A DNA stretch of 48,912 nucleotides from Deltaproteobacteria bacterium (lineage in GTDB: Bacteria > Desulfobacterota > Dissulfuribacteria > Dissulfuribacterales > QOAL01): positions 1 to 48,912 of the forward strand of contig JALWYO010000082.1 in the NCBI GenBank assembly GCA_026992735.1, written 5' to 3'. Position 1 is the stretch's first letter. Each line of letters begins with the position of its first letter. Made by a program: the position numbers and the translations under genes. Positions 2,372 through 48,556 of the stretch are shown piece by piece. The notes under the pieces were generated by a model. The model searched no databases, was not told the origin of the DNA, and saw nothing but the letters and a program-made list of their open reading frames with translations.

Positions 2372-3814
2372 TTGGCAGCCCTGAAAATAAAGGCCGAGAA
2401 AACGGTCATTTTATCTCTATTGTTTATCCTCGGCACCATGCCGATTATCTTTGGCGCTGTTCATCCATTTACCCAGGGATTGTACACCTTTGCAATTATT
2501 AGCCTGGCAGGAGGCGGGTTATTATTCTGCAGAGACGGCATCATAGAAAGTACTATAAATTTTCGTGTACTTTCGGTCCCATTCATTCTTTTTCTATATA
2601 TAGTGATTAGCTCCCTGCCTGTTCCACTCTTTCTTATTTCTATCTTTTCTCCGCACAGGGCCCGGGCTCTCATGGAAGTCAATATCTTGACAGATTCTGA
2701 CATCAATCTGGCATCGCTCAGTTATAACGGCCTTTCTGGATTGCCCATGGCCGCTTTTTACCTTGCACTGATACTCTTTTTTATAGTTATGGTCTCTTCC
2801 ATGAAAAAAAGAAAAGACCTTTTTTACACAATCTGCATTGTCATGGTCGCAACAGGCAGCTTCGAGGCTGTTTATGGCCTTTTACAGGTATTGTTCCCTC
2901 ATCTTGGAATATTGTGGCTTCCCAATATAACTCATTGCGCTTGCGGAAGTATAATCTATAAGAATCAGTACGCTGCCTTTCTGAATCTCTGCTGGCCAAC
3001 AGCCCTGGCCCTTTATATTGACTGCGCAAACAAGGCAAAACAGGTGCGTAAAACAAAGGGAAAGAGGCGGTACCCGGCCCGCTTTATTAAGGATATTTAT
3101 TTCCATGACAATAAGGGCCTGCTGTTTCTCTTCCTGGCAGTGGTCATGATGCTGGCGATTCTTTTTTCCCTGTCTCGGGCTGGGATCCTAGTCATGTTTC
3201 TAATCTGGGCACTTTTGTTTCTGCTCCTCCCGTTTCCCAGAAAAAAGACACTCCTGCTGTTTTCAGCAGTCTTTGCAGGTCTTTTGTTTTACGGCAGTCA
3301 GATCGGGTTTCATAAACTTCTGGAGAGATTTCTTACACTGGAGAAATCCGGCATCAGCCGGATAACCGTCTGGATATCGAGTTTGCCAATTCTTTATGAC
3401 TACTGGCTTACAGGCATTGGTATAGACTCTTATAAATTGCTTTCCTCCGTTTATCTCAAACATTTTCCCCCGGATATTATTTGGGACAGGGCTCATAATG
3501 AATACCTTGAAACTGTTCTGGAACTTGGAGTTCCGGCAGCGGGCCTACTGTTTGGATGGATCTTTTCCAGGCTGAGCAACGCATATCATTATTTTTTGAA
3601 TCAGAGACACGGCGATTTTTCTGCCATGAGCCTTGAAACCTTTTTGGCTGTTTCCAGCCTGGCATCCATCACGGGATTACTGTTTCATGGCCTCGTTGAT
3701 TTTGTCTGGAAACTTCCTGCAAATGCCCTTTTTTGCACGACACTTGCAGCCTTACTATATTATTGTATGCAGGAAATTTCAGGACAGCACTTAAGCTATC
3801 ATGTTCCAGGATAA
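2372..3814 (+). CDS. O-antigen ligase/polymerase-like membrane protein (Wzy_C type)
   Basis: The product is an integral membrane protein of up to 480 residues with roughly 10-12 hydrophobic segments. A large periplasmic loop (about residues 315-400) carries the family hallmark HNEYLETVLELG preceded by WLTGIGIDSY. Proteins of this fold (WaaL, Wzy and PglL relatives) transfer or polymerise undecaprenyl-linked glycans on the periplasmic face. In an EPS cluster beside Wza and a Wzc-like kinase, polymerase is as likely as ligase. The longest frame starts at a TTG (2372) without a clear ribosome site. A start at the ATG around 2438 would remove the first membrane segment, so I keep the longer form. 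Confidence 0.75.
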   Translation: MAALKIKAEKTVILSLLFILGTMPIIFGAVHPFTQGLYTFAIISLAGGGLLFCRDGIIESTINFRVLSVPFILFLYIVISSLPVPLFLISIFSPHRARALMEVNILTDSDINLASLSYNGLSGLPMAAFYLALILFFIVMVSSMKKRKDLFYTICIVMVATGSFEAVYGLLQVLFPHLGILWLPNITHCACGSIIYKNQYAAFLNLCWPTALALYIDCANKAKQVRKTKGKRRYPARFIKDIYFHDNKGLLFLFLAVVMMLAILFSLSRAGILVMFLIWALLFLLLPFPRKKTLLLFSAVFAGLLFYGSQIGFHKLLERFLTLEKSGISRITVWISSLPILYDYWLTGIGIDSYKLLSSVYLKHFPPDIIWDRAHNEYLETVLELGVPAAGLLFGWIFSRLSNAYHYFLNQRHGDFSAMSLETFLAVSSLASITGLLFHGLVDFVWKLPANALFCTTLAALLYYCMQEISGQHLSYHVPG

Positions 3815-3835
3815 GAGGGGTGAGAAAGATTTGAG

Positions 3836-4633
3836 ATGAAAAAGGCCTATTTCGGATTCTCTGATATTCACTGCCATATCCTGCCTGGGCTGGATGACGG
3901 AGCCAAGGATTTTGCGGTTAGTCTGGCCATGGCCAGGCAGTTTGAACATGCCGGTTTTAAAAAGATTATTGCAACGCCACATTTTATTCCTGGAACTGCC
4001 TGGTCGGCCTCAAAAAAGACGGTATTGAATGCTGTCAGCACGCTTCGGACGCGCCTCCAGGAAGAAGGTATTGCGCTGGATATTTATCCGGGCATGGAGA
4101 TAGCTATACATCCGCAAGTCATGAATAATATAAAAAGGGGCTTTTTGCTGCCATTGGCCAACAGCAATCTGTTTCTCCTGGAGCCATCCTTTTCCAGCGG
4201 CTTTCATGATATATTAAAGGCTGTGGAGGAATGCAGGACTGACGGGATTGATATTGTCCTTGCTCATCCAGAAAGGATACCTGCTCTTCAGAGGCATCCC
4301 AAACGTTTCCTGGAACTCCTGGAAATGGAAATCTATTTTCAGGTTAACATTTCCAGTCTTCTTGGCCACCTGGGCAGGAATAGCGAACAATCTGCTAGAT
4401 ACCTGCTGGAACATGATGCCATCTATTTTTTTGCTTCAGATGCCCATAACAGCTCAATACGCAAACCTCCCGCCACGGAAGACCTTTACAGGCTTGAAAC
4501 AGAATACGGTATCAATTTAAAAAAGTTATTCACTAAGCATATGTTTAACATATTTAATTTCGAAGATATGAACGATACCCGGTACAATAAAATGAGCAGG
4601 GTTAATGCCGGGCTCAGGATGGTATCATATTAG
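3836..4633 (+). CDS. Tyrosine-protein phosphatase of the PHP type (CpsB/YwqE family)
   Basis: The 265-residue cytoplasmic protein has the metal-binding signatures of the polymerase-and-histidinol-phosphatase fold. These are DIHCHILPGLDDGA near the N terminus, a PHFIPG segment, LAHPER near residue 145 and FASDAHN near residue 200. In this family the metals dephosphorylate the tyrosine tail of the cognate BY-kinase, which lies 34 bases downstream. The phosphatase-kinase pair is the usual switch for polymer length and export rate. The start ATG has a G-rich stretch upstream (gaggggtgag). The length is normal for the family. Confidence 0.87.
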   Translation: MKKAYFGFSDIHCHILPGLDDGAKDFAVSLAMARQFEHAGFKKIIATPHFIPGTAWSASKKTVLNAVSTLRTRLQEEGIALDIYPGMEIAIHPQVMNNIKRGFLLPLANSNLFLLEPSFSSGFHDILKAVEECRTDGIDIVLAHPERIPALQRHPKRFLELLEMEIYFQVNISSLLGHLGRNSEQSARYLLEHDAIYFFASDAHNSSIRKPPATEDLYRLETEYGINLKKLFTKHMFNIFNFEDMNDTRYNKMSRVNAGLRMVSY

Positions 4634-33232: not shown

Positions 33233-33583
33233 GCATAATAAAAAAGGTAGTAAAATTTCGCGTCATTTTTTTGAACTATTGGCGCAGCATGCATGCTCTT
33301 TTCTATTTCATGTAGGGCTGCAATGTTGCCTGGTCGTTTTTCCACAACTCTGAAAACGCTCAAAATACGGGGATGGTATTCCATTGTTAACTGGTAAATC
33401 CTTTTATAGCGTTTCAAAACAGCGCATCATTCCATGTTCTAGCTCCCTGCATGTTCACTCATTACCACTTCATTCCCTAAATTCATCCGGTCTTTATCTT
33501 GCTTGCCTACCTATTATCAGGTTCCAGAAAAAAGGGGGGCAGGATGATCTCTGCAATATTTTCAACAGATGAGGAGGACTCAA

Positions 33584-34693
33584 ATGTCTGAAAAGCAATA
33601 TGGCCATGAAATCAAAACAGGTCTCAGCCGCAGGTCGTTTCTCAAGGGCTGTGCAATTGCTGCCGCCACCCTTGGACTCTCCCCAGAGGTAGTCCCAAGG
33701 ATGGTGGAGGCCGCCATGTCTCCCAAAAGGCCGCCGGTAGTATGGCTGCACTTCCAGGAATGCACGGGCTGCACCGAGGCCCTGTTGCGTTCGGCCAGGC
33801 CGGACATAGCCACCCTTATCCTGGACCTTATCTCCCTGGATTACCATGAAACCGTCATGGCCGCTGCTGGGGAACAGGCTGAGCAGAACCTCCATGAGGC
33901 CATAAACGACAATGCAGGCAAGTTCATCTGCGTGGTGGAAGGGGCCATTCCCACCAAGGATGGCGGCATCTACTGCAAGATAGGCGGAAAAACGGCCATG
34001 GAAATCCTTGACGACGTGGCGCACAAGTCAAAGGCCGTAATCGCCATAGGGACCTGCGGGGCATTTGGCGGCGTCCAGGCCGCAAAGCCAAACCCCACGG
34101 GAGCAGTCGGTGTTCAGGACCTGATAAAAGACAGGCCGATTATAAATGTTCCCGGCTGTCCGCCAAATCCCGCGAACTTCCTGGCCACAGTGGTGCAGAT
34201 ACTCACCTACGGCCGTCCTCCAGAGCTTGACGAACTTGGAAGGCCGAAGTTTGCCTACGGAAGAAAGATACACGACCAGTGCGAGCGCAGATCGCACTTC
34301 GACGAGGGGCGCTTTGTGGAACAGTTCGGGGACCCGGGGCACAAGAAGGCCTACTGCCTCTACAAGATGGGCTGCAAGGGACCTGTCACCTATTCAAACT
34401 GCTCGGTAGAGCGCTTCTGTAACATCGGCGCATGGCCGGTAGGTTCCGGGCATGGCTGTATCGGCTGCACCGAACCAGGATTCTGGGATACCATGATGCC
34501 GATCTACCAGCACCTGCCAGGCATATACATCCCTGTTGGCGGAGGCATCAGGGAACAGGCAGAGAAGATGGGCAAGTTCGCTGTAGGAGGTGCTGCCGCA
34601 GTCATTGCCGCCCATGCCGCAGCGGGAATAGGGAAAAAGATATTCTCCATAAAATGTTCCTCTGGAGAAGACAAGAAAGACAAAGACGAATAG
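33584..34693 (+). CDS. [NiFe] hydrogenase small subunit, Tat-exported (group 1)
   Basis: This is the electron-transfer subunit with three Fe-S clusters. I start at the ATG at 33584, preceded by gaggagg; an ATG at 33569 overlaps that ribosome site. The 369-residue protein has a twin-arginine signal (SRRSFLKGC near residue 16). The proximal-cluster segment is HFQECTGCTEALLRS, with GTCGAFGGVQAAKPNPTG and VPGCPPNP further along. C-terminal cluster motifs are CLYKMGCKGP and CIGCTEPGFWD. A hydrophobic alanine/glycine stretch near the C terminus may anchor it, and the tail is charged. Glycines stand where oxygen-tolerant enzymes have two extra cysteines (CTGC rather than CTCC; FGGVQ rather than WGCVQ), so it is of the standard type. 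Confidence 0.94.
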   Translation: MSEKQYGHEIKTGLSRRSFLKGCAIAAATLGLSPEVVPRMVEAAMSPKRPPVVWLHFQECTGCTEALLRSARPDIATLILDLISLDYHETVMAAAGEQAEQNLHEAINDNAGKFICVVEGAIPTKDGGIYCKIGGKTAMEILDDVAHKSKAVIAIGTCGAFGGVQAAKPNPTGAVGVQDLIKDRPIINVPGCPPNPANFLATVVQILTYGRPPELDELGRPKFAYGRKIHDQCERRSHFDEGRFVEQFGDPGHKKAYCLYKMGCKGPVTYSNCSVERFCNIGAWPVGSGHGCIGCTEPGFWDTMMPIYQHLPGIYIPVGGGIREQAEKMGKFAVGGAAAVIAAHAAAGIGKKIFSIKCSSGEDKKDKDE

Positions 34694-34705: not shown

Positions 34706-36415
34706 ATGGCTACCAAGATCACTGTCGATCCCATTACCCGGATAGAAGGCCATTTAAGGATAGACGTGGAAGTGGACAAAGGGAACATCACCAATGCATG
34801 GGCGTCTCCACAGATGTGGCGCGGCATAGAGGTGATTCTGAAGGGAAGGGACCCAAGGGATGCGTGGGCATTCTGCCAGAGGATCTGCGGGGTCTGCACC
34901 ACGGTGCATGCCATAGCATCTGTCAGGACGGTGGAAAATGCCCTGGGCATCGGGGTCCCGATAAATGCCCAGTACATCAGGAATATCATACTTTGCGCCC
35001 ATGCAATGCACGACCATATCGTCCACTTTTACCAGCTTTCAGCCCTGGACTGGGTGGACGTTGTTTCAGCCCTGGATGCGGACCCAGGCAAGACAGCCGA
35101 GCTTGCCCAGTCACTGTCTCCCTGGCCGGGCAACGGCAAGAGCCGTTTTGCAGAAGTAAAGGCAAAGCTGGAAGCCCTGGTGAAAAGCGGACAGCTTGGC
35201 CCGTTCCAGAACGGTTACTGGGGGCATCCGGCCATGAAGCTCCCCCCGGAAGCAAACCTCATGGCAGTGTCCCACTACCTGCAGGCCCTGGACTACCAGC
35301 GCAAGGCTGACCAGGTGGCGGCCATCTTCGGAGGGAAAAACCCGCATATACAGACTGTCATAGTGGGAGGAGTGGCCCTGGCCATCAACCTCAACAACCT
35401 TTCCACGTTAAACATGGACAGGCTCACGCAGGCCAAACAGCTTCTCCAGGAGGTGAGGCAATTCGTGCAGCAGGTTTACCTGCCGGACGTGATTGCCATC
35501 GGTGCCCTGTACAAGAACTGGCTTGCCTACGGGAAAGGGGTAACCAACTACCTTGCCGTCCCGGACCTGCCGCTGGACTGCAAGGGAACCAGTTTCGATC
35601 TGCCCGGCGGGACCATCTTCGGCGCAGACCTTAAAGACTTTACCCCCATAACTTCTTTTAATGACAAGTACTTCAGGGACAACGTGGCAGAATCCATTGT
35701 CCACTCCTGGTACAAGGGAGACTGGACCCGTCACCCGTGGAACGAGGAAACAGTGCCTGACTACACTGACTTCCAGGAAAATGGAAAGTATTCCTGGGCA
35801 AAGGCACCCAGGTTTAACGGTGAGCCGATGCAGGTAGGCCCCCTGGCCCAGGTGCTGGTGGGGTACGTGAGCGGACACGAAACAACCAGGAAATGGGTAG
35901 ATCTTGCTCTCAAAAAGGTCTCTGCAATAGCAGGGGCAAATGTTGGTCCTGATGCACTCCAGTCCACTCCTGGGCGTCACCTTGCAAGGTCAATAAGGGC
36001 GGCAATGATCGCCGACTATGCCATCAAGCACATAGACCTTCTTATCAAGAATATCGGTATGGGAGACCTGGAAATCTATCCGTACAACAACCCACCCAGG
36101 TTCCCCAAAGGCGAGATACGCGGCTTTGGCTTCCACGAGGCCCCACGGGGCACGCTTTCTCACTGGATAGTGATAGATAATGGAAAGATCAAGAACTACC
36201 AGTGCGTGGTCCCGTCCACATGGAACGTAAGCCCCAGGTGCGCCAAGGACTACATGGGCCCTTATGAATCATCACTGGTAGGCAACCCGGTGGCAGATGC
36301 CGCCAAGCCCCTGGAAGTTCTAAGGACCATTCATTCCTTTGATCCCTGCATTGCCTGTGCCGTTCATCTCCTGGACCCGGGCAAGAGGGAATTTTCAAAG
36401 GTAAAGGTGCTCTGA
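34706..36415 (+). CDS. [NiFe] hydrogenase large subunit
   Basis: This subunit carries the NiFe active site and splits H2. The 569-residue protein has the N-terminal pair RICGVCTTVHA (CxxC) near residue 62 and the C-terminal pair DPCIACAVH. The segment after that His (LLDPGKREFSKVKVL) is the extension removed by the maturation protease once nickel is in place, and the protease gene is at 44253. It has an aggagg ribosome site and follows the small subunit by 12 bases. With no signal of its own, it would be carried across the membrane by the small subunit's Tat signal. It belongs to the membrane-bound uptake hydrogenase group with the cytochrome b that follows. Confidence 0.96.
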   Translation: MATKITVDPITRIEGHLRIDVEVDKGNITNAWASPQMWRGIEVILKGRDPRDAWAFCQRICGVCTTVHAIASVRTVENALGIGVPINAQYIRNIILCAHAMHDHIVHFYQLSALDWVDVVSALDADPGKTAELAQSLSPWPGNGKSRFAEVKAKLEALVKSGQLGPFQNGYWGHPAMKLPPEANLMAVSHYLQALDYQRKADQVAAIFGGKNPHIQTVIVGGVALAINLNNLSTLNMDRLTQAKQLLQEVRQFVQQVYLPDVIAIGALYKNWLAYGKGVTNYLAVPDLPLDCKGTSFDLPGGTIFGADLKDFTPITSFNDKYFRDNVAESIVHSWYKGDWTRHPWNEETVPDYTDFQENGKYSWAKAPRFNGEPMQVGPLAQVLVGYVSGHETTRKWVDLALKKVSAIAGANVGPDALQSTPGRHLARSIRAAMIADYAIKHIDLLIKNIGMGDLEIYPYNNPPRFPKGEIRGFGFHEAPRGTLSHWIVIDNGKIKNYQCVVPSTWNVSPRCAKDYMGPYESSLVGNPVADAAKPLEVLRTIHSFDPCIACAVHLLDPGKREFSKVKVL

Positions 36416-36431: not shown

Positions 36432-37139
36432 ATGGTAAGGAAAGAACCGAGACTCTACTACAGGGTTTTTGTGTGGAGCGGCACCCTCAGGTTGTTTCAC
36501 TGGACCCTTGCATTCAGCACTTTTATCCTGATCCTTACGGGGATATACATACATTATCCGCCCATAACCACCAAGTGGGCAGAGTTCAAGCCACAGTACA
36601 TCATGGCCACATTGAGATACTGGCATTTTACTGCAGGCTATTTCTTTATATGCGCCCTGCTTGTGCGCTTCTACCTCTTTTTTGCAGGCAACAGGTACGA
36701 ACGCCCCACGGATTTTCTTCCCATAAACAAAAGGAATCTCAAATCATTGGTTTATAACATCAAGTTCTACCTGTACCTGACGGATGAGCACGAGTGCAGG
36801 ATGGGCCACACCATCCTGGCAGGCACGATCTACTTTATCCTGTTCATCTGCGGCCTGATCATGGGCCTGACCGGCCTGTACCTGCTCTACCCTGAGACGC
36901 CCATGATTGCCAAGATAGGGCATGAGCTTTTTGGCACTCCCCAGCAGGCCCGTCTGGTGCACTATACGTTGAACTGGTTCTTCATCTTTTTCATCATGGT
37001 GCATCTCTACATTGCCATATGGAATGATTTCAATGCACCTGACGCTATCATTTCAGGGGCCTTCTCCGGCTCCAAGATGATGCCTGCAGACCTTGAGTGC
37101 CCTATAGAGGAGCTGGAGAAGATCCCCTTTGAAAAATAA
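36432..37139 (+). CDS. Hydrogenase cytochrome b subunit (HyaC type)
   Basis: This di-haem membrane subunit passes electrons from the small subunit to quinone. The 235-residue protein has four likely membrane helices: about 20-40 (FHWTLAFSTFILILTGIYIHY), 60-80 (WHFTAGYFFICALLVRFYLFF), 125-150 (ILAGTIYFILFICGLIMGLTG) and 180-205 (LNWFFIFFIMVHLYIAIWNDF). Histidines in the first, second and last helices suit haem ligation. An aaaggagggc ribosome site precedes the ATG. It closes the structural gene trio, so the hydrogenase is probably an uptake enzyme that feeds the quinone pool from periplasmic H2. Confidence 0.92.
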   Translation: MVRKEPRLYYRVFVWSGTLRLFHWTLAFSTFILILTGIYIHYPPITTKWAEFKPQYIMATLRYWHFTAGYFFICALLVRFYLFFAGNRYERPTDFLPINKRNLKSLVYNIKFYLYLTDEHECRMGHTILAGTIYFILFICGLIMGLTGLYLLYPETPMIAKIGHELFGTPQQARLVHYTLNWFFIFFIMVHLYIAIWNDFNAPDAIISGAFSGSKMMPADLECPIEELEKIPFEK

Positions 37140-37299: not shown

Positions 37300-39537
37300 A
37301 TGAGGAATTTTCTGCCTGCGCTTAACTGGTTTTCGGGCTATGGCGCCGGGGCGCTGCGCCAGGACCTGGTCAGCGGAATTACAGTGGCACTGGTCCTTAT
37401 TCCCCAGTCAATGGCCTATGCCCAGCTTGCGGGTCTTCCTCCATATTATGGGCTTTATGCCTCCTTCCTGCCTCCAGTAATAGCAGCGCTATTCGGATCC
37501 AGCCGGCAACTTTCCACAGGCCCGGTGGCAGTAGTCGCCATGATGACATCAGCCGCACTGGAACCCATGGCTGTTGCTGGCAGTCAAGGGTATATCGCCT
37601 ATGCGGTATTACTGGCCCTGCTCGTGGGCATAATACAGTTCGGGCTTGGAGTCCTGAGGCTTGGGGTAGTGGTCAACCTTCTGTCTCATCCGGTTTTGCT
37701 TGGCTTCACCAATGCCGCTGCCATTGTGATTGCAACCAGCCAGCTTGGAAAATTTCTTGGCGTGCCAGTTGACAAGGGGCATACGCATTTTGAGACTGTC
37801 TGGCGAATCATCCAGGCAGCCCTGGACTATGTGTACTGGCCGACCATTGCCTTTGGCACAGGGGCACTTGCCGGCATGCTCTACCTGAAATGGAAATATC
37901 CGAAACTACCTTACGTGCTCATCGCGGTAACCATAGCAACGGTTATCTCATGGGCAACTGATTACGGCCTTGACAGGAAGGTATCCATTTCCCAGATAGA
38001 ATGCCCCGATCTGCCTGATCTTGTAAGCAAGTTCAACCAGGAACTCATGACAATAGAGACATTCACGGCGACCCGTTCCAGGTTAAGGCCCCAAGTGGAA
38101 CGCATCAGCAGAGAACACGGCAAGCCATGCAGCCGTTGCCATCCTGCCAGGACGATCGGTACAGACGTACTTGAGACAGCTCCACCAGGCATAAACAAGG
38201 GCAAATGGAACATGAAACAGTATCAGGAAAAGATACTTGTTCTGCACCTCATGGCCGGGGTCATTGATGAATTCATTGCAGATGCAAAGGAAAAACTTGT
38301 AAAATTCAGGGCCTGCCTGAAGGGCTACAAATTCGTGGCAGTCAAACTGCCGGATGGGACCACCCGATATTATCAGAGGTACAAGGTTCCCTACAATGCC
38401 CAGACAGACTGGCGCATCTGGAGGATAAAGGCCTATAACAAACCTATTTCCAGGGATGCGCTGATCCTTGCAGCAGGAGGTGGCGTGGTAGGAGACATAC
38501 CGAAAGGGCTGCCAGGTTTTTCCATGCCATGCCACGATATTGACATAGCCAGGAAACTGTTGCTTTCCGCCTTTGTCATAGCCCTGGTAGGATTTATGGA
38601 AGCAATCTCGATCGCAAAGGTAATGGCAGCCAAATCCGGTCAGAAACTGGATGCAAACCAGGAGCTGATAGGGCAGGGTATTGCCAATATAGCAGGGTCC
38701 TTTTTCAGCAGCTTTCCGGTATCCGGCTCCTTTTCCAGGTCTGCGGTAAATTTCGAGTCAGGTGCCCAAACAGGCATGTCCAGCATTTTTACCAGCATGG
38801 TCGTGATACTGGTCATGCTGTTCCTTACCCCGCTGCTGTATCATCTTCCACAAAGCGTGCTTGCCGCAGTGATCATGGTAGCTGTCCTTGGGCTCATTAA
38901 TATCAAGGGATTAAAACATACATTCAAGGTATCCATGGCTGATGGCGTTATAAGCCTTATCACGTTTGTCACTACGCTGGCATTTGCCCCGCACCTGGAC
39001 AAGGGCGTGCTTACAGGGACCTTGCTGAGCCTTGTTGTCTTTTTCTACAGGATGATGCGCCCGTCCATCGCAGTGCTATCCCTCTGGAAGGATGGCCATT
39101 ACAGGGATTCAAAAAAATACAACCTGGCCCTGTGCCGCTATATTGCAATAATCAGGTTTGACGGGCCATTCTTCTTTGCAAATATTGGCTATCTCGATGA
39201 AGAAGTGCTCAGGATAGTGAACGACAGGAAAGAACTCAGGGCCATAATACTGAAGTGCAACGGTATAAACGTGATAGATGCATCAGGCGAAGAGGCCCTG
39301 GCCCTCATGGTGGACAGGCTCAGGGCAGCGGGTTACCGGGTTTATTTCAGCGGCATAAAGGAAAATGTACTCGAAGTCATCCAAAACAGCTCTCTTTACA
39401 GCAGGATAGGCCCTGAGAACATCTTTGCCACACTCGCAATCGCACTCTCAAAGATATGGGACACATACCATTATGACAGCCAGGAAGAAGAGTGCCCGCT
39501 GAAAAAGGTAATCTACAAACAGGCCACAAAAACCTGA
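37300..39537 (+). CDS. SulP-family anion transporter with large CxxCH-containing insertion and STAS domain
   Basis: The 745-residue protein begins as a SulP transporter (LVSGITVALVLIPQSMAYAQLAGLPPYYGLYAS is split here as LVSGITVALVLIPQSM and AYAQLAGLPPYYGLYAS). The membrane core resumes after an insertion (FVIALVGFMEAISIAKVMA, NIAGSFFSSFPVSGSFSRSA), and the C terminus is a cytoplasmic STAS domain (about 605-715, GINVIDASGEEALA). Between about residues 225 and 410 lies a soluble, partly coiled insertion. It carries CSRCH (residues 277-281), a haem-c or metal-type motif, and a YYQRYKVPYNAQ segment. SulP proteins carry sulfate, bicarbonate or other anions, and the substrate here is unknown. It sits 160 bases after the hydrogenase trio and overlaps the approach to hypF, so it is in the hydrogenase locus. 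Confidence 0.88.
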   Translation: MRNFLPALNWFSGYGAGALRQDLVSGITVALVLIPQSMAYAQLAGLPPYYGLYASFLPPVIAALFGSSRQLSTGPVAVVAMMTSAALEPMAVAGSQGYIAYAVLLALLVGIIQFGLGVLRLGVVVNLLSHPVLLGFTNAAAIVIATSQLGKFLGVPVDKGHTHFETVWRIIQAALDYVYWPTIAFGTGALAGMLYLKWKYPKLPYVLIAVTIATVISWATDYGLDRKVSISQIECPDLPDLVSKFNQELMTIETFTATRSRLRPQVERISREHGKPCSRCHPARTIGTDVLETAPPGINKGKWNMKQYQEKILVLHLMAGVIDEFIADAKEKLVKFRACLKGYKFVAVKLPDGTTRYYQRYKVPYNAQTDWRIWRIKAYNKPISRDALILAAGGGVVGDIPKGLPGFSMPCHDIDIARKLLLSAFVIALVGFMEAISIAKVMAAKSGQKLDANQELIGQGIANIAGSFFSSFPVSGSFSRSAVNFESGAQTGMSSIFTSMVVILVMLFLTPLLYHLPQSVLAAVIMVAVLGLINIKGLKHTFKVSMADGVISLITFVTTLAFAPHLDKGVLTGTLLSLVVFFYRMMRPSIAVLSLWKDGHYRDSKKYNLALCRYIAIIRFDGPFFFANIGYLDEEVLRIVNDRKELRAIILKCNGINVIDASGEEALALMVDRLRAAGYRVYFSGIKENVLEVIQNSSLYSRIGPENIFATLAIALSKIWDTYHYDSQEEECPLKKVIYKQATKT

Positions 39538-39569: not shown

Positions 39570-41894
39570 ATGGCTCTGGAAATCAGAATCAGAGGCATTG
39601 TCCAGGGAGTCGGCTTCCGGCCATTCGTGTACAGGCTCGCCAAGGGGCTGGATCTAAGGGGCAACATAAGTAATACTACTTCCGGAGTGGTTATACGCAT
39701 AGCCGGGCAAAAGGAGAATGTTGCCATGTTCGTGCAAAAGATCAGGGAAGAGGCACCACCTCTTTCCAGAATACACGGCATGGAAACAGAAAACCTTCTG
39801 ACAGAAGGGCCCTTGCCTGAAGGCTTTGAGATTTCCGGAACCCTCAGCCATGGCAGGGTCAGCACCCTTATCTCTCCTGACATTGCGGTCTGCAGGGATT
39901 GCCTGGCAGAGATCATGGACAGGAACGACAGGCGTTTCGGTTACGCTTTCACAAACTGCACCAACTGCGGCCCCCGTTACACCATCATAGAGTCTCTTCC
40001 GTATGACCGCGAAAACACGTCCATGAAGGCCTTCAGGATGTGCAAGTCCTGCCTTGAAGAATACCAATCTCCCATGGACCGGCGTTTCCATGCCCAGCCC
40101 AATGCCTGCCCGGAATGTGGTCCGGGGCTGTACTGGCTTGCCAGCGGTAAAATCGCCAGGGATGATCCCATAGGCAAGGCAGCTGCCTTTCTCCAGGCAG
40201 GGAAAATAGTGGCCATAAAAGGATTGGGAGGTTTTCATATTGCAGCAGATGCATTTGAGGACGTGCCTGTCAATACATTGAGGACCAGGAAGCAAAGGCC
40301 ATTCAAGCCGTTTGCTGTAATGCTAGATGGTATTGAGACTGCCAGGGAACTATGCCATCTCTCTGACAAGGAAGCCAATATACTGATGTCGCTCGAGGCC
40401 CCGATTGTCGTGGTTCCTGCCAGGGAAGATTCGGGGCTTTCAGCAAAGATTGCGCCGGGGATAGGGAAAATCGGAGTCATGCTGCCGTACACTCCTCTCC
40501 ATCACCTGCTGTTTGCAAGGAAGGCATGCCCCAGGGCATTGATAATGACCAGCGGCAACCCCAGGGGAGAACCCCTGTGCACAGGCAACCATGAGGCATT
40601 GGAACGTCTGGACAACTACGTTGACGGCTTCCTGCTGCACGACAGGGACATATACACGGGAGTGGATGACTCGGTTGTAAGAATCATGGCAGGGAAACCC
40701 AGGTTTATCCGCCGTTCCAGGGGATTTGCTCCCGCACCTGTCAAGGCTGTTGGAGTAAGCCATCCCGGCCTTGCAGTAGGAGCAGAGCTGAAAAACACCT
40801 TCTGCCTGTGCAGAAAAGACGAGGCATTCCCCAGCCAGCACATCGGCAATCTTTCCAGCCTGGCCTGCCTGGAGTTTTTCCAGGAAAACATTGCACATAT
40901 GAAAAGGCTCCTGGAAATTACCCCTGAATTCATTGCGGCAGACCTTCATCCCGATTATCTGAGTACAAGCTATGCTGTAGAGACCGGCCTTCCTGTCTTC
41001 CGGATTCAGCACCATTTTGCACATGCAGCATCGGTCATGGCAGAACACGGTATCAGGGAAGAGGTGCTGGCCCTGGTCCTGGACGGATCAGGCTTCGGCC
41101 CGGATAACACTGTGTGGGGAGGAGAAGTTCTGTCATGCACGCCAGCAGGATTTCAGCGGCTTGCCCGCCTCAGGCCGTTTCCCTTGCCAGGAGGCGACAT
41201 GGCGGCCAGGGAACCGTGGCGAATGGCACTGTCCCTACTTTTTTCCATGGGAGTCACGGATTCTCATGCCGTGCCCATGCTGCCAGGCCAGGCCATTGAC
41301 CCTCAGAAACAGCAAAACATCCTTGAAATAATGAGACTCGGGCTGGGATCTCCCATGACTTCCAGCTGCGGCAGGCTGTTTGATGGAGTGGCGGCACTGG
41401 CTGATGTATGCATTAAAAATACCTATGAAGGCCAATCAGCCATGATGCTGGAGCATTGCTGTCAAAAGGCCTTGAGAGGCAAAAACATAGTTGATACGAC
41501 TGAATTCGAAGATTTTCTGCATGACAGGGCCTGCTGGAGCCAGGGCGAAATGCCTCCTTATGAGATAGACTGGAGACAGTGTGTGGAGACGATACGAAGA
41601 TATTTAAAGGAAGGCCGAAGCAAAGAAGCGATTTCGACAGTTTTCCATGCATTCCTTACAGCCTCGTTCAGTAGTCTCTTGATAGAGCTGGCTTCTCTAA
41701 AAGGCATTTCGAAGCTGGTCCTGAGCGGGGGATGCATGCAAAACCGCGTACTTCTCGAGGGGCTGACCTCCTATCTGAATGCAAAAGGTTTGCAGGTCTA
41801 TGTTAATGAATGCGTTCCTGCAAACGATGCCGGGATATCCCTGGGCCAGGCACTGGCAGGATCGGCACTTTACGAGGCAGCAGTATGTGCTTAG
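39570..41894 (+). CDS. hypF: Carbamoyltransferase HypF
   Basis: HypF makes the thiocarbamate precursor of the hydrogenase cyanide ligands from carbamoyl phosphate and passes it to HypE. I start at the ATG at 39570 (MALEIRIRGIVQGVGFRPF), the homologous start. An ATG at 39537 overlaps the SulP stop (TGATG) and would add 11 residues. The protein has an N-terminal acylphosphatase domain and two zinc-finger-like blocks (CRDCLAEI...CTNCGPRY and CKSCLEEY...CPECGPG). A YrdC-like domain follows (IVAIKGLGGFHIAADA, RKQRPFKPFAVM), then a Kae1-like C-terminal domain (IQHHFAHAASVMAEHG, LVLDGSGFG, LVLSGGCMQNRVL). Its 775 residues are normal for the family. Confidence 0.95.
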   Translation: MALEIRIRGIVQGVGFRPFVYRLAKGLDLRGNISNTTSGVVIRIAGQKENVAMFVQKIREEAPPLSRIHGMETENLLTEGPLPEGFEISGTLSHGRVSTLISPDIAVCRDCLAEIMDRNDRRFGYAFTNCTNCGPRYTIIESLPYDRENTSMKAFRMCKSCLEEYQSPMDRRFHAQPNACPECGPGLYWLASGKIARDDPIGKAAAFLQAGKIVAIKGLGGFHIAADAFEDVPVNTLRTRKQRPFKPFAVMLDGIETARELCHLSDKEANILMSLEAPIVVVPAREDSGLSAKIAPGIGKIGVMLPYTPLHHLLFARKACPRALIMTSGNPRGEPLCTGNHEALERLDNYVDGFLLHDRDIYTGVDDSVVRIMAGKPRFIRRSRGFAPAPVKAVGVSHPGLAVGAELKNTFCLCRKDEAFPSQHIGNLSSLACLEFFQENIAHMKRLLEITPEFIAADLHPDYLSTSYAVETGLPVFRIQHHFAHAASVMAEHGIREEVLALVLDGSGFGPDNTVWGGEVLSCTPAGFQRLARLRPFPLPGGDMAAREPWRMALSLLFSMGVTDSHAVPMLPGQAIDPQKQQNILEIMRLGLGSPMTSSCGRLFDGVAALADVCIKNTYEGQSAMMLEHCCQKALRGKNIVDTTEFEDFLHDRACWSQGEMPPYEIDWRQCVETIRRYLKEGRSKEAISTVFHAFLTASFSSLLIELASLKGISKLVLSGGCMQNRVLLEGLTSYLNAKGLQVYVNECVPANDAGISLGQALAGSALYEAAVCA

Positions 41895-42148
41895 CAATAC
41901 CCATGAAGGTAACAGCAATTGAAGGAGATCAGGATGACATCCTGATACCGCCTGTGGCAACAGTTGAGGCCAGGGGAGTTACAAGCAGGATAAGGCTGGA
42001 TATCGTGGACCGTATGCCCAGAGTTGGCGATTACGTTATTGTTCACGCAGGTTTTGCCATCCATACCCTTGCTCCCGAAGATGCCCGGAAAAGCATGGCC
42101 CTGCTGCAGGAAATGGCCGGGCAGACAGACGACAATCAACCAAGATGA
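41885..42148 (+). CDS. hypC: Hydrogenase maturation chaperone HypC
   Basis: HypC binds HypD while the Fe(CN)2CO unit is built and then the large-subunit precursor. I start at the ATG at 41885 because the mature N terminus MCLAIPMKV, with its essential Cys2, begins there. This start lies inside the end of hypF (10-base overlap). The 87-residue protein has the family beta-barrel motifs VDRMPRVGDYVIVHAGFAIHTL. It overlaps hypD by ATGA, so the hyp genes are translationally chained. Confidence 0.95.
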   Translation: MCLAIPMKVTAIEGDQDDILIPPVATVEARGVTSRIRLDIVDRMPRVGDYVIVHAGFAIHTLAPEDARKSMALLQEMAGQTDDNQPR

Positions 42149-43221
42149 CAGACTTTGCAAAAGGCATGGCCCAAGGCCTGCTGTCAAAGATCAAAGACGC
42201 TTCATCAGGCAAGCCCATGTGCTTCATGGAGGTATGCGGCACGCATACCATGTCCATATTCCGCAGTGGCATCAGAAAACTGCTTCCCAGGGAAATCCGT
42301 CTTGTTTCCGGCCCTGGATGCCCTGTCTGCGTAACACCCGTGGGGGAAATCGACCAGATGATTGAGCTGTCCCTGCTGCCCGGAGTAATTACAGCCACCT
42401 TTGGAGACATATTAAGGGTACCAGGCAGCACATATAACCTGTCAGAAGCCAGGGCAAGGGGCGCTGAAATCAAGGTTGTATATTCTCCTGCAGATGCGCT
42501 GGAAATTGCGGAGAACAACCCTGACAAGAAGGTGGTATTCCTTGGCATAGGCTTTGAGACAACTGCTCCCTCTGTTGCAGCCACAATATTGCAGGCCCAC
42601 AGGAACAAGCTGAAAAACTTTATGGTATTTCCCAGCCACAAACTGATGCCGCCGGCCCTGGATGCGCTGCTTTCCGATCCTGAAATAGACATGGATGGCC
42701 TTATTTGCCCAGGGCATGTCAGTACCATAATAGGGGCCAGAGCCTTTGAACCTGTTGCTGAAAAATTTCAGATGCCTTGCGTTGTAACAGGCTTTGAGCC
42801 TCTGGATATCCTCCAGGGAATCTGTATGCTGGCGCAGCAGGTATCCAGGGGAGAGAACATGGTTGAAAATGCCTACCGACGCGCTGTCTCATGGGATGGC
42901 AACAGGAGGGCCAGAAAGATTATAGAAACGGTGTTCAAGCCTGCAGATGCCAGGTGGAGAGGCCTTGGCACAATAGCAAGAAGTGGACTGGAGATAAGAA
43001 AAAAATTCAGACAGCTTGATGCCAGAAGGCATTTCGGCACCAGGGAAAAGACCGTGCCTGAGCCGAAAGGATGCCAATGCGCCCAGATCATCAAGGGTAT
43101 GGCCCTGCCATCATCGTGTCCCATGTTTTCCAGTGCCTGTACACCCCTGACCCCGGTTGGGCCGTGCATGGTATCCAGCGAAGGCACCTGTGCGGCATAC
43201 TATAAGTATGGAGAATCATGA
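42145..43221 (+). CDS. hypD: Hydrogenase maturation protein HypD
   Basis: HypD is a 4Fe-4S protein that, with HypC, assembles the Fe(CN)2CO unit. The 358-residue length is normal. Conserved elements are FMEVCGTHTMSIFRSGI, SGPGCPVCVTPVGEID, FLGIGFETTAPSVA and GFEPLDILQG. C-terminal cysteines lie in GCQCAQIIKG, SCPMFSSACTPLTPVGPCM and EGTCAAYY. It overlaps hypC and hypE by ATGA at each end. Confidence 0.96.
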   Translation: MTDFAKGMAQGLLSKIKDASSGKPMCFMEVCGTHTMSIFRSGIRKLLPREIRLVSGPGCPVCVTPVGEIDQMIELSLLPGVITATFGDILRVPGSTYNLSEARARGAEIKVVYSPADALEIAENNPDKKVVFLGIGFETTAPSVAATILQAHRNKLKNFMVFPSHKLMPPALDALLSDPEIDMDGLICPGHVSTIIGARAFEPVAEKFQMPCVVTGFEPLDILQGICMLAQQVSRGENMVENAYRRAVSWDGNRRARKIIETVFKPADARWRGLGTIARSGLEIRKKFRQLDARRHFGTREKTVPEPKGCQCAQIIKGMALPSSCPMFSSACTPLTPVGPCMVSSEGTCAAYYKYGES

Positions 43222-44246
43222 AGGCATCAAGAGTGCTTATAGATCATGGAAGCGGAGGCTTGGCCACAAAGGAACTTATCGAAAAAATATTCCTGAAACG
43301 GCTGTCTAACCGCTACCTATCCAGATTGGAAGACAGCGCTGTACTGGACGGTAAATCCAGCGGCAGGATCGCCTTAACTACTGACAGTTACGTGGTGGAC
43401 CCGATATTTTTCCCAGGCGGTGACATAGGCTCCCTGTCTGTCCATGGAACCATAAATGATCTCGCCATGCAGGGGGCCAGGCCGGTTGCCCTGACACTGG
43501 GACTCATACTGGAAGAGGGGTTGCTGATGGAAGAACTGGAGCAGGTAGCCACCTCCATTGCGTCCGCATCTCTTGACGCAGGCGTACCTGTAGTGACAGC
43601 GGATACCAAGGTGGTTCCATGCGGCAAGGCCGACAAGATCTTTATCAATACCTCAGGAATAGGCATGGTGCCTGAGGGGATTTCCCTTGGGGCAGACCGG
43701 GCGCGTCCCGGAGACGTGGTGCTCGTCTCCGGTTTCATCGGAGATCACGGGGCAGCAATCATGACCTCCAGGGCAAACCTGTCATTTTCATCAGGTATAA
43801 ACAGCGATTCCGCACCGCTTCACAGGCTTGTGGAAAGGCTGCTGGACAGATGTCCTGGGAATGAGATGAGGCTTTTCAGAGATCCTACAAGGGGAGGGCT
43901 GGCCACTGTGCTGAACGAGATTGCCCAGGCTTCCAGGGTCAGGATCGCCATTGATGAAGGTGCCATCCCCGTCCGGGCAGAGGTTATCAGCATCTGTGAA
44001 CTTCTTGGCCTTGACCCGCTCTATCTTGCAAACGAAGGGAAACTCGTGACTGTTGCAGCAAGAGAATGCGCGGATCAGGCTCTGGAAGCCATGAAAGAGA
44101 CAGAAGAGGGGAAGCATGCAGCCATAATCGGCGAGATCATGGAGGTAAAAAAGGCCCCGGGCCCACGGGTAACAATCAAAACAGGCATAGGCGGAACCCG
44201 CATAGTCTCCATGCTGGCAGGAGAGCCACTGCCGAGGATATGCTGA
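43218..44246 (+). CDS. hypE: Carbamoyl dehydratase HypE
   Basis: HypE accepts the carbamoyl group from HypF on its C-terminal cysteine and dehydrates it with ATP to the thiocyanate used as cyanide donor. The 342-residue protein is of the PurM/SelD fold. It has an N-terminal LIDHGSGGLATKELIE, the ATP-binding DSYVVDPIFFPGGDIGSLSV and RDPTRGGLATVLNEIA. The C terminus ends PLPRIC, matching the required P-R-x-C tail. It overlaps hypD by ATGA. Confidence 0.96.
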   Translation: MKASRVLIDHGSGGLATKELIEKIFLKRLSNRYLSRLEDSAVLDGKSSGRIALTTDSYVVDPIFFPGGDIGSLSVHGTINDLAMQGARPVALTLGLILEEGLLMEELEQVATSIASASLDAGVPVVTADTKVVPCGKADKIFINTSGIGMVPEGISLGADRARPGDVVLVSGFIGDHGAAIMTSRANLSFSSGINSDSAPLHRLVERLLDRCPGNEMRLFRDPTRGGLATVLNEIAQASRVRIAIDEGAIPVRAEVISICELLGLDPLYLANEGKLVTVAARECADQALEAMKETEEGKHAAIIGEIMEVKKAPGPRVTIKTGIGGTRIVSMLAGEPLPRIC

Positions 44247-44252
44247 TACAAC

Positions 44253-44750
44253 ATGCATAATATTGGGGAAAAAAACGCTGCTGTAATAGGCATAGGTAAC
44301 CTTATCATGGGGGATGACGGGTTTGGAATCCATGTAATCCAGTACCTGGAGAAACATTTCCAGTTCCCTGAAGACGTGAATCTCGTGGACGGAGGCACTG
44401 CAGGCATCTACATGGCCCCTTTATTCGAGGCAACAGACAGGGCCATTGTGATAGATGTAATTGCCATGGACCTGGAGCCTGGCTCAATAGTCTGCCTTGG
44501 CCATGACGAGATGAGGGGAAGAATAACAAGCTCCAGCATGTCTCCACATCAAATCGGGGTGTTGGAGGTGCTGGAGATATGCAGGTTCAATGGCACAGCT
44601 CCCCGGAAGGTGGATTTTATATGCGTGGTGCCAGATAAAATTTTGCCATCAACCAGGCTTTCTCCTGCACTTTCTCCAATAACTGCCAAGGTGGCCCTCA
44701 TGGTAACAGATATCCTTAAACAGGAAGGATTTTCCATAGAGGATGCATGA
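44253..44750 (+). CDS. Hydrogenase maturation endopeptidase (HyaD/HybD family)
   Basis: This protease removes the C-terminal extension of the large subunit after nickel insertion. The 165-residue protein starts AAVIGIGNLIMGDDGFG, with the conserved acidic nickel-sensing region. It continues with LVDGGTAGIYMAPLFEA, RAIVIDVIAMDLEPG and SSSMSPHQIGVLEVLE (the conserved histidine). The target is very probably the large subunit at 34706, cleaved after the histidine of DPCIACAVH. It begins 7 bases after hypE and overlaps hypA by 8 bases. Unusually for a structural-operon protease, it lies within the hyp genes. Confidence 0.92.
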   Translation: MHNIGEKNAAVIGIGNLIMGDDGFGIHVIQYLEKHFQFPEDVNLVDGGTAGIYMAPLFEATDRAIVIDVIAMDLEPGSIVCLGHDEMRGRITSSSMSPHQIGVLEVLEICRFNGTAPRKVDFICVVPDKILPSTRLSPALSPITAKVALMVTDILKQEGFSIEDA

Positions 44751-45141
44751 AGTCAGCCTGGTACAGGGCCTCATGGAACAGGTCAGAAATATAGCCAGGA
44801 ATAACAGAGCCTCTGAAATAATCCGCATAAAGGTGCTCATTGGCCCCTTTTCAGGCGTGGTGATAGATTCATTTGAATTTGCCTTTGATGCGCTCAAGCA
44901 GGACGATGCCCTCTTCAGGCAGTGCATGCTGGAAATCCAGGCACCTGGGCCTGTATTCCAGTGCAGGAAATGCGGTGCAAAGACAGCAGGGCAGGGAAGG
45001 CAGGCTAATACTGTAGATCAGCCGGGTTCTGCCGTATTTTCCTGGCTTTCTCATGAAACAGCCTGTCCTGAATGCGGAGAGAAGGCACTAACTCCATCCG
45101 GAGGAGACGAGATACTGCTGATGCAGGTAGAAATGGAGTAG
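44743..45141 (+). CDS. hypA: Nickel metallochaperone HypA
   Basis: HypA delivers nickel to the hydrogenase large subunit with HypB. The 132-residue protein starts MHEVSLVQGLMEQV, with the nickel-binding Met-His-Glu terminus. It has a zinc site made of two C-x2-C pairs, FQCRKCGAK and TACPECGEK. A spacer between the pairs (about residues 72-108) is longer than in the classic short HypA. It overlaps the protease gene by 8 bases and is followed directly by hypB. Confidence 0.93.
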   Translation: MHEVSLVQGLMEQVRNIARNNRASEIIRIKVLIGPFSGVVIDSFEFAFDALKQDDALFRQCMLEIQAPGPVFQCRKCGAKTAGQGRQANTVDQPGSAVFSWLSHETACPECGEKALTPSGGDEILLMQVEME

Positions 45142-45143
45142 AT

Positions 45144-45848
45144 ATGTGTGATCAATGTGGATGCCAGGCAAACACGGCCCGTGGCAGGAAAGTCCTTGAC
45201 ATCAACAAAAGTCTCCTGGAAGAAAACCAGAAACTCGGTGAAGAGAACAGGAGGCATATCCAGGAGATGGGCGCTGTTGGCATCAACATCATAAGCAGTC
45301 CCGGCGCCGGCAAGACCACGCTCCTCGAAGCAACGGCAGATGCCGCAGCCGGACATTTTTCCTTCGGGGTCATAGAGGGCGATATAGAGACAGAACGTGA
45401 TGCCGAGAGGATCAGGAAGAAAGGCATTCCTGCCGTGCAGATCACCACCGGCGGGGCCTGCCACCTGGATGCACACCTGGTGCATGGAGGAATCCATCAG
45501 ATCCAGGATACGGCAGGCCCGGAAGGCCTGGATATTATCTTCATAGAAAACGTGGGGAACCTGGTCTGTCCTGCCACCTTCTACCTTGGAGAGCACCAAA
45601 GGATAGTAATGGTCTCCGTGCCGGAAGGCTCGGACAAGCCTGCCAAGTATCCCAGGGCATTCATTGGCTCTGACCTCTTCATTATCTCCAAGGCAGACCT
45701 GCTTCCATACTTTGATTTCTCCATGGAAGAAGCCTCTGAAGAGGCCAAAAGGCTGAACCCGGATATAAAGATCCTGACGGTTTCTGCTGTCACAGGAGAG
45801 GGAATGGAACATTGGCTGAGTTATCTCTCCGGCCTGCTGAACAGATAG
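45144..45848 (+). CDS. hypB: GTPase and nickel-insertion protein HypB
   Basis: HypB is a GTP-dependent nickel chaperone. I start at the ATG at 45144 because the N-terminal high-affinity metal site CDQCGC begins there; the longer frame from 45072 lies inside hypA. The 234-residue protein has the P-loop NIISSPGAGKTTLLEA, an EGDIETERDAERI segment, the GTPase-domain metal site TGGACHLDA, IENVGNLVCPATF and the guanine motif SKADLL. There is no long histidine-rich stretch, so nickel storage is not expected. It closes the hyp cluster. Confidence 0.95.
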   Translation: MCDQCGCQANTARGRKVLDINKSLLEENQKLGEENRRHIQEMGAVGINIISSPGAGKTTLLEATADAAAGHFSFGVIEGDIETERDAERIRKKGIPAVQITTGGACHLDAHLVHGGIHQIQDTAGPEGLDIIFIENVGNLVCPATFYLGEHQRIVMVSVPEGSDKPAKYPRAFIGSDLFIISKADLLPYFDFSMEEASEEAKRLNPDIKILTVSAVTGEGMEHWLSYLSGLLNR

Positions 45849-46611: not shown

Positions 46612-47367
46612 ATGCTTGAATACTGGATCATGTTTCCGGCTGGCCTGGTTATCTCAACTTTGGCCATGTTTTCCGGGCTTGGAGGCGGCGTCTTCTGGAT
46701 GCCATTTCTGCTCTCTGTCACGGGCCTGTCACCACATCAGGCAGTTGTAACAACACTGCTGATACAGCTTTTCGGACAGGGCAGCGCTACCGTCGCCAAT
46801 CACAACAACAAATTTATAGACTGGAAACTGGTCATCATGCAGGCAAAAGCAGGAGCTCCAGCAGCTGCAGCCGGAGCTGTTCTGTCCATGTACATGCAAC
46901 CTGTAATGATCAAGTTTCTACTCGGGATCGTCATCTTCTTTATCGCATACGTCTTTCTGCGTGGTGATGACTTTTTTGAAAAGGGCGGCGAGCATGCAGA
47001 TATGAAGGCAGCGATCAAAGGCCGGCCAATAACCACAGCAGGCGGAATACTTACAGGATTTCTTGGAATAGGAGTAGGGGATTGGTTAGTGCCATTCTTC
47101 AACAAACAATGCCACCTCTCAATGGTACGTTCAGTATCCACTGCTATTGCCCTTATGATGCTTCTATCTGCCTCGGCCCTGACCACGTATCTGAACCTTG
47201 GCGCAAAAATTCCATGGAGCATAACACTGCCGGGTATCGCTGGCGTCATTGCAGGTGCCCAGATAGGAGCACGGCTGCTCAAAACCGTATCAGAAGTCCG
47301 CTTTAAAGAAATTTTTGTGCTCATGCTGGTATTTCTTGCAACACATGTTACATTTAATGCCTTCTAA
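46612..47367 (+). CDS. TSUP-family (TauE/SafE) membrane permease
   Basis: The 251-residue protein has about eight membrane segments and the TSUP repeat feel: FSGLGGGVFWMPFLL and SPHQAVVTTLLIQLFGQGSA in the first half, GFLGIGVGDWLVPF and VRSVSTAIALMMLLSASAL in the second. This family moves sulfite, sulfoacetate, taurine-derived or other organosulfur anions, and the substrate here cannot be read. It follows the HAMP protein with a two-base gap and precedes the exosortase genes. In an organism with SulP and hydrogenase it may export sulfite or thiosulfate-type anions; this is an inference. Confidence 0.85.
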   Translation: MLEYWIMFPAGLVISTLAMFSGLGGGVFWMPFLLSVTGLSPHQAVVTTLLIQLFGQGSATVANHNNKFIDWKLVIMQAKAGAPAAAAGAVLSMYMQPVMIKFLLGIVIFFIAYVFLRGDDFFEKGGEHADMKAAIKGRPITTAGGILTGFLGIGVGDWLVPFFNKQCHLSMVRSVSTAIALMMLLSASALTTYLNLGAKIPWSITLPGIAGVIAGAQIGARLLKTVSEVRFKEIFVLMLVFLATHVTFNAF

Positions 47368-47436: not shown

Positions 47437-47958
47437 ATGACAAAAAACGCTGCCTTGGACAAGAAAACCATTATCCGCTTCATACTGGTCTATCTGGCAC
47501 TAATCGGCGCCATGGAGATATTTCTTGGACTTCATTTCTTCCAGAGAATAATAGACCTGAACGGCATTTATTCCAGCACTACCGCCTGGTTTTCCGCTAA
47601 ACTGCTTACAGCAGTGGGCATAGATGTGTGGCATAAAGGCCCCCTGCTCCACCTGCCAGGCAGAACTTTAAGAATAGCCTTTGGGTGCAATGGCCTAGAA
47701 GCTGTGGTGATCTACGGCAGCGCCGTTTTGGCGTTTCCAGCTTCCTGGAAGTATAAGATTAAAGGTCTTGTTTATGGACTGGTCTCCATGCAGCTGCTGA
47801 ATCTCATCAGGATAGCTGCCCTTGGCTATACGGCAGTACATTTCCCCAAATGGTTTGACTACGTACATTACTACGTTGCCCAAGGGCTCATGATAGCCGT
47901 TGCCCTTGGTATATTCGTGTTCTGGCTAAGGGGCATAGAAAGTGCCAAGGCCTCATAG
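47437..47958 (+). CDS. xrtH: Exosortase H-like membrane transpeptidase
   Basis: Exosortases cut a C-terminal sorting signal from exported proteins and join them to a surface carrier. The 173-residue protein is multi-spanning and has the catalytic triad context of the family. The cysteine is in RIAFGCNGLEAVVIYGSA (near residue 87), the arginine in QLLNLIRIAALGY (near 122), and the histidine in FDYVHYYVAQG (near 143). Small size and the FGCNGLEA motif fit the XrtH branch. It overlaps the next gene by 17 bases; that product resembles the membrane protein that accompanies exosortase H. No protein in the window ends with the IPTLxxWG-type signal expected for this branch. Confidence 0.82.
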   Translation: MTKNAALDKKTIIRFILVYLALIGAMEIFLGLHFFQRIIDLNGIYSSTTAWFSAKLLTAVGIDVWHKGPLLHLPGRTLRIAFGCNGLEAVVIYGSAVLAFPASWKYKIKGLVYGLVSMQLLNLIRIAALGYTAVHFPKWFDYVHYYVAQGLMIAVALGIFVFWLRGIESAKAS

Positions 47959-48556
47959 ACTCTCTACTGCTGCAAGAGCGGTGCTGGTCTTCTGCCTGGT
48001 CTACCTGCCGATCCTGGCAGGCTGGATAGCATTCAAACACTACTATACGCATCCTCTGGCATGTACTGGCGCAAAGCTTGCCGCCCTGAGCACAGATGCC
48101 GAACTGGCTCACTGTCATTATTCCAAAGGCAGTGTTAACGCCACGTTCGTAAGGATAGTAGTTACCCCTGCCGGGGTATACCCGGCCCGCTCAGGCGTGG
48201 TGCTGGATGACAACCGCTATACATTCAACGTACCTATTACGCTGGCGATGCTCATTGTAACCACTGTGCTCATGAGGATTTCCTGGCGTGCATGGAGCAA
48301 GGCACTGGCTGCACTGATACTGGGGCACCTGCTCTATACCTATGCATGTTTTCTGTTCCAACTGGGCTTCTTCAAGGCCAGGATAGGAGGAGTCATCTAT
48401 TCTTCTACTCCACCAGTTGCAGTACAGCTGTTCTGGGATTTTTGCAGAAGCATGCTGATCCGTTTTGAGCCGTTTCTAATTCTTGCCGTACTCATCTTGG
48501 TGCACAGCCTGACTACTGCAAAAAATAAAGCCGGAGAGGCTGAAACTTCCAAATAA
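47942..48556 (+). CDS. Exosortase H-associated membrane protein
   Basis: The 204-residue protein starts with a GTG inside the end of the exosortase gene. It has a signal-like first helix (VLVFCLVYLPILAGWIAF), a periplasmic region of about 65 residues with two cysteines (PLACTG, ELAHCHY), and three further membrane helices (about 95-112, 120-145 and 170-190). The layout and coupling match the small partner protein found beside exosortase H, whose role is not established. The lysine-rich end (TTAKNKAGEAETSK) is cytoplasmic. A terminator for the opposing rRNA operon lies just beyond. Confidence 0.68.
   Translation: MPRPHRLSTAARAVLVFCLVYLPILAGWIAFKHYYTHPLACTGAKLAALSTDAELAHCHYSKGSVNATFVRIVVTPAGVYPARSGVVLDDNRYTFNVPITLAMLIVTTVLMRISWRAWSKALAALILGHLLYTYACFLFQLGFFKARIGGVIYSSTPPVAVQLFWDFCRSMLIRFEPFLILAVLILVHSLTTAKNKAGEAETSK

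Follow-up and report, generated by a model that had tools for sequence, protein, structure and literature searches.

The window, the whole stretch of 48,912 nucleotides that was analysed, encodes a SulP/SLC26-type anion transporter whose membrane domain is interrupted by a soluble lobe, and the tip of this lobe bears a CxxCH motif that is conserved, together with a histidine, throughout one clade of relatives. The gene lies inside a [NiFe] hydrogenase operon (Table 1), in a genome that also holds genes for haem c attachment and for dissimilatory sulfur metabolism. We tentatively propose, giving it somewhat less than an even chance, that the lobe would present a periplasmic bis-His c-type haem on an anion transporter, likely one for sulfate, as a redox input by which transport is adjusted. 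Transport may be tied in this manner to the electron supply of the cell.

Table 1. Coordinates in the window of the transporter, its parts and the surrounding genes
Feature	Position	Strand	Basis
[NiFe] hydrogenase small subunit with Tat signal	33569..34693	+	TIGR00391 471 bits, cut-off 179.5; TIGR01409
[NiFe] hydrogenase large subunit	34706..36415	+	PF00374 E 1.3e-224
Hydrogenase b-type cytochrome subunit (cytb)	36432..37139	+	TIGR02125 140.4 bits, cut-off 121.5
SulP/SLC26-type anion transporter, 745 aa	37300..39537	+	ORF, Pfam, NCBIfam, alignment to solved structures
Lobe between TM7 and TM8, residues 223-392	37966..38475	+	AlphaFold2 model of the lobe alone
CSRCH (C277, C280, H281), candidate covalent haem c site, residues 277-281	38128..38142	+	15/15 clade, gap in 29/29 others
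H316, candidate second axial ligand	38245..38247	+	His in 15/15 clade, 2/29 others
STAS domain, cytoplasmic, residues 615-713	39142..39438	+	Pfam PF01740, 57.1 bits, cut-off 22.6
hypF-like maturation gene	39570..41894	+	ORF, sequence, conserved order; putative name
hypC-, hypD-, hypE-like genes	41885..44246	+	ORFs and conserved order; putative names
Hydrogenase-protease-like ORF, before hypA	about 44260-44750	+	Sequence; putative name
hypA- and hypB-like genes	44747..45848	+	Sequence, hypB order; putative names

The transporter gene starts with ATG, and its product scores 442 bits against the TIGR00815 sulP model (NCBIfam, cut-off 380). Sulfate_transp PF00916 is matched in two stretches (Pfam, E 1.5e-110), with both halves of the membrane domain found. 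Both halves likewise align to the solved structures of SULTR4;1 (7lhv), prestin (7v73), SLC26Dg (5da0) and BicA (6ki1), and the best match includes the STAS domain. However, 7lhv and 7v73 as aligned lack a large lobe between TM7 and TM8, and no CxxCH lobe is present in the solved relatives. In particular, residues 305 and 314 of prestin (7v73) align to residues 218 and 393, so that a stretch of 8 residues in prestin is matched by 174 in the window protein. The sequence-only reading had described a SulP protein with a soluble insertion splitting the membrane domain, and this is borne out, TM7 and TM8 being separated by about 173 residues. That reading was also right to place the insertion outside the SulP core, although a comparable one has already been published (group Ci, PMC5840216). 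The source genome contains one SulP copy (E up to 0.001). Beyond the STAS domain, a C-terminal 'CPL' (residues 732-734, positions 39493-39501) is kept in forms with and without CxxCH, and C732, P733 and L734 are nearly invariant in A2.

As for the substrate, sulfate is the probable anion, rather than bicarbonate or another one. The motif PXYGLY, linked to sulfate clade C of SulP in PMC5840216, is present as PYYGLY at residues 48-53, and within the CxxCH clade P48 is kept in 14/15 proteins while Y50 and G51 are kept in 15/15. D22 and R69 are also present, according to our own matching of residues to the sulfate-transport features given in PMC5840216. The source genome encodes DsrA and AprA and gives three Cytochrom_CIII matches. 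Its gene content fits a host with dissimilatory sulfur metabolism, either sulfate reduction or sulfur disproportionation, that would be able to oxidise H2 and to make c-type cytochromes. An alternative, which we hold to be not likely, is that the protein imports bicarbonate for H2-driven CO2 fixation, or for the carbamoyl phosphate used by HypF. Indeed, characterised prokaryotic SulP proteins are mostly bicarbonate:Na+ symporters, as stated in PMC5840216, and a carbonic anhydrase (PF00484, E 2.7e-25) with a signal-like N-terminus is encoded near a CxxCH-type sulP of the clade, in one locus only (L133:4838-5572). Yet the BicA model NF050096 gives 135.9 bits, far from its cut-off of 880, PXYGLY is tied to the sulfate clade, and DsrA and AprA are indicative of sulfur respiration. 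The model of the dicarboxylate transporter DauA (NF008660) also stays below its cut-off, with 227.6 bits against 614.

The position of the lobe relative to the membrane can be approached through the fold. Seven membrane segments precede the break in a fold-guided reading of the sequence, with segment limits that are our own. Slc26a9 is built on a 7+7 inverted repeat with its STAS domain in the cytoplasm, and its alpha3-alpha4 loop is extracellular (PMC6656431); by this pattern the TM7-TM8 (alpha7-alpha8) loop should likewise be outside. On the established 7+7 fold and on the count of segments, the lobe should thus be in the periplasm. The short TM6-TM7 loop carries 3 Lys in 7 residues. By contrast, residues 221-412 contain 31 K+R versus 20 D+E, a simple charge count that does not speak for the periplasm. 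Charge rules are intended for short loops. The sequence-only reading had allowed for either side of the membrane, with a cytoplasmic lobe acting as a metal or thiol switch; a cytoplasmic thiol switch is unlikely, although not disproven, as seven segments, those of the first repeat, precede the lobe.

Modelling of the lobe alone by AlphaFold2 with 10 sequences gave a mean pLDDT of 80.1, falling below 50 at the CxxCH tip. The predicted fold comprises a strand, a long helix (238-272), the tip loop, two further helices (305-318 and 321-342) and a small beta sheet. The full-length model, also with 10 sequences, was poor (mean pLDDT 42.2). No convincing membrane helix was found within the lobe, whose top 19-residue hydropathy is 1.34. 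Pfam and NCBIfam yielded only sub-threshold matches of the lobe to unrelated families. Among solved structures, no match was obtained with the A5 profile at E up to 1, and the A3 profile returned three chance-level rows only (E 0.12-0.72). Foldseek with the lobe model gave no match at E up to 0.001, while VIA-align reached a best Z of 7.5 with common helical hairpins of unrelated proteins. A haem c protein was not recognised among the structure rows listed for the lobe, a result that excludes nothing.

A related insertion has been described in group Ci of the SulP family, with a mean length of 710 aa and about 90 additional residues compared with Rv1739c and PA1647, and was read there as an extra membrane helix (Marietou et al. 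2018, PMC5840216). Group Ci and the window protein share the combination of SulP and STAS domains and an insertion, and the group occurs in sulfate-reducing bacteria. They differ in that the clade of the window adds CxxCH, a longer hairpin tip and the conserved H316, along with the hydrogenase operon, and in that the lobe of the window is without a convincing membrane helix whereas the group Ci insertion was assigned one. Comparison within a 44-sequence alignment (the window protein, L002-L016, L071, L043-L066 and L097-L099) separates 15 proteins with CxxCH from 29 without; L042 was left out as a repeat of L014, L071 stands for L041 as the same gene, and L011 and L097 are truncated where their contigs end. 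All 44 sequences share N246 and W374, and therefore the CxxCH and non-CxxCH forms represent one lobe. The number of residues between 222 and 395 is 165-180 with CxxCH (n=15) and 138-143 without (n=29). This difference, together with the gap at CxxCH, indicates that the tip was either gained by the shared lobe in one form or lost from it in the other. In a tree built on 572 core columns excluding the insertion, the 15 CxxCH proteins form one clade with support 1.0, and the midpoint rooting used does not tell gain of CxxCH from its loss. The 29 relatives with the 138-143-residue form are probably group Ci, judging by the description in PMC5840216. Joint conservation of the insertion and CxxCH, a check set by the sequence-only reading, holds within one subclade (15/15) and fails across the family, where 29/29 other aligned homologues with the insertion are without the cysteines. 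The lobe itself is already known in kind, and what is new is the CxxCH subclade (15/44 aligned) with its longer hairpin tip. No report of a haem- or CxxCH-bearing SulP, or of a SulP in a hydrogenase operon, was found in the open-licence literature searched.

Across the phylum, shorter lobes that lack CxxCH are widespread, and the lobe is broader in distribution than the motif. Indeed, the lobe was matched in 52/395 genomes of the phylum, and among the 30 phylum loci listed, 5 carry CxxCH, including the window itself (L040), and 25 do not. Within the class of the window, 16/46 genomes have a match. In its own family (f1), CxxCH is present in ten full-length proteins, the window included, and in the cut L011, while in family f10 the insertion is found in five proteins, none of them with CxxCH. 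In the class of G196, the CxxCH form was matched in 4/41 genomes, all of one genus. A scan of one genome per species (84,980 species) with the two patterns LHLMAGV[IM] and TD[WR][HR][VI]WRI[KRV], which would miss the second CxxCH branch, recovered 9 loci, all in Deltaproteobacteria or Thermodesulfobacteriota metagenome-assembled genomes. These loci (L022-L030) share their genomes with nine of L002-L010 and hence are not independent of them. Viral contigs gave 27 pattern matches, with no relative among them.

The occurrence of CSRCH at residues 277-281, claimed from the sequence, is confirmed, and the spacing is exactly CxxCH in all 15 clade members of the 44-sequence alignment. Insertions within this clade drop to 22% identity to that of the window, with C277, C280, H281 and H316 still present in 15/15. 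A chance origin of the motif was considered and rejected: composition-preserving shuffles of the protein produce CxxCH in 20/20,000 cases, and the motif is kept throughout the clade. The column of H316 holds E in 19, K in 4, Q in 3, G in 1 and His in 2 of the 29 non-CxxCH proteins. His occurs one column later in 18/29 of them, so that how distinctive H316 is hinges on the alignment register, and a one-residue slip is possible. Residue 318 is Met in 11/15 clade members and Leu in 4/15. The replacement by Leu disfavours M318 as second ligand, and a His is favoured over Met for this role.

In organisms possessing CcsA and ResB, an exported CxxCH is as a rule regarded as a site for haem c and is usually haemylated. 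The source genome encodes this haem c assembly system, with CcsA-type PF01578 in 2 places and ResB PF05140, all over cut-off. On this established knowledge of haem attachment, the lobe likely binds haem c, and H316 may supply an axial ligand. The window protein resembles mono-haem c-type cytochromes in having CxxCH on the presumed outer side and maturation genes in the genome, but it differs from them in that the lobe is predicted as a helical hairpin with a small sheet, for which no counterpart was found among cytochrome c families and folds. The main rival to a haem, which we regard as unlikely, is that C277, C280, H281 and H316 bind zinc or another metal at the lobe tip, with a structural or a regulatory role. 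Two Cys and two His that are strictly conserved together would suit such a site, as would a lobe that matches no known haem fold; against it stand the usual haemylation of exported CxxCH alongside CcsA/ResB and the spacing, which is exactly CxxCH in 15/15.

The genetic setting of the transporter connects it with hydrogenase. The large subunit encoded upstream scores 779 bits with the hydrogenase 2 model NF007778, below the cut-off of 969. The downstream genes, which we take from their sequences to be hypF, hypC, hypD, hypE, a protease-like ORF, hypA and hypB, follow in this order. The hypF frame is open from 39492. An in-frame ATG at 39537 shares one base with the sulP stop, while the likelier start, at 39570, lies 32 bases after that stop. 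No terminator-like site was found on the + strand between cytb and hypF. The order cytb-sulP-hypF is present in the window and in 8/9 scan loci, L029 being the exception, and sulP sits directly downstream of cytb and before hypF in 9/10 full-length family members. In parallel, tblastn detected no hydrogenase gene near the non-CxxCH relatives in 19 loci (L072-L090), some of them short stretches, nor near the f10 loci (L031-L035) in 5/5 cases within the available stretches. The hydrogenase large subunit is encoded in 11/11 family genomes with a SulP match and in 5/8 without one. Two genomes (G016 and G013) lack sulP at this place, and their hypF begins 87 bases after cytb. The hydrogenase link is not general, because in the second branch of the clade (L011 and four of the genus of G196) a Usp gene, and not hydrogenase, adjoins sulP in 4/5 loci, the fifth being cut by a contig end.

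These arrangements bear on whether the haem might instead serve for docking or for relaying electrons, say between hydrogenase and c3 cytochromes; the transporter would then be an anchor, and its transport would not be regulated by the haem. The position of sulP in the operon beside hydrogenase and cytochrome b, and the c3-type proteins in the genome, are in line with such a relay. It is nevertheless a quite improbable account, given the single haem with no other cofactor in the same protein, the 5/8 family genomes that have hydrogenase and not this SulP, the two genomes in which hypF follows cytb directly, and the second branch located away from hydrogenase. A disulfide between the two cysteines, acting in the periplasm as a thiol switch or fold clamp with no cofactor, would agree with two Cys placed three apart in an exported loop but would leave the invariant H281 and H316 unexplained, and is very improbable.

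In the preferred reading, the periplasmic lobe tip of an insertion-type SulP would bear a single c-type haem on C277 and C280, with H281 and probably H316 as axial ligands (bis-His). The transporter would be produced together with a periplasmic [NiFe] uptake hydrogenase, and electrons derived from H2 would set the redox state of the haem, either directly or through a c3-type cytochrome, as the possible donor. A change in this state might displace the lobe relative to the mobile transport domain and thereby adjust anion uptake, the anion being most likely sulfate as terminal electron acceptor. If the haem is present, we lean slightly towards a regulatory role for it. The fullest form of the model, in which a built-in periplasmic haem c would sense the electron supply from H2 oxidation and gate sulfate uptake, such that a single operon would coordinate the oxidation of the donor with the import of the acceptor, is speculative, and we consider it unlikely to hold in its entirety. 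Weighing against the haem and gating reading are the pLDDT below 50 at the tip, the absence of a match to known haem folds, the basic character of the lobe, the doubt on the register of H316, the suitability of Cys2His2 for zinc as well, and the occurrence of hydrogenase without this SulP in 5/8 genomes.

To our knowledge, how sulfate reducers tune sulfate import to the electron donor is poorly known. If the proposal were true, an outer-face haem on a sulfate-type transporter encoded in a hydrogenase operon would represent a direct redox handle on a protein of SLC26 fold and would connect H2 oxidation to acceptor uptake in a way open to testing, with the natural non-CxxCH relatives (29/44 aligned) as a ready comparison set.

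Other observations concern the variation of these loci. Compared with the window, L022, L026 and L030 have hydrogenase structural genes that are about 83-94% identical, sulP 69-74% and hyp genes about 51-72%, while other family members reach about 69-73% in the hydrogenase subunits and about 45% in cytb. From such identities, the hydrogenase structural genes seem to have been exchanged beside a resident sulP-hyp block. The genome G019 has two hydrogenase types (L131 and L127): the one adjacent to sulP is 72% identical, and the second, 91% identical, lies on another contig with no sulP nearby. In G029 (L128) the hydrogenase is on a different contig from sulP. In G014 (L129, L028) the genes look broken, as the large-subunit gene contains 1 TGA and 1 TAG and the small-subunit and cytb genes are in pieces; hypF and hypB are also split in L028. 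In L134 a multihaem cytochrome-like ORF (2960-3856; Cytochrome_C554, E 8.6e-07) lies downstream of a CxxCH-type sulP on the opposite strand. The window itself encodes after hypB a TauE/SafE-type permease (46612-47367; PF01925, E 2.8e-41), which tblastn did not find in related hydrogenase loci. It also encodes an ORF of 204 aa (47942-48556) with no Pfam match, which has a 58% identical counterpart after hypB in L022.
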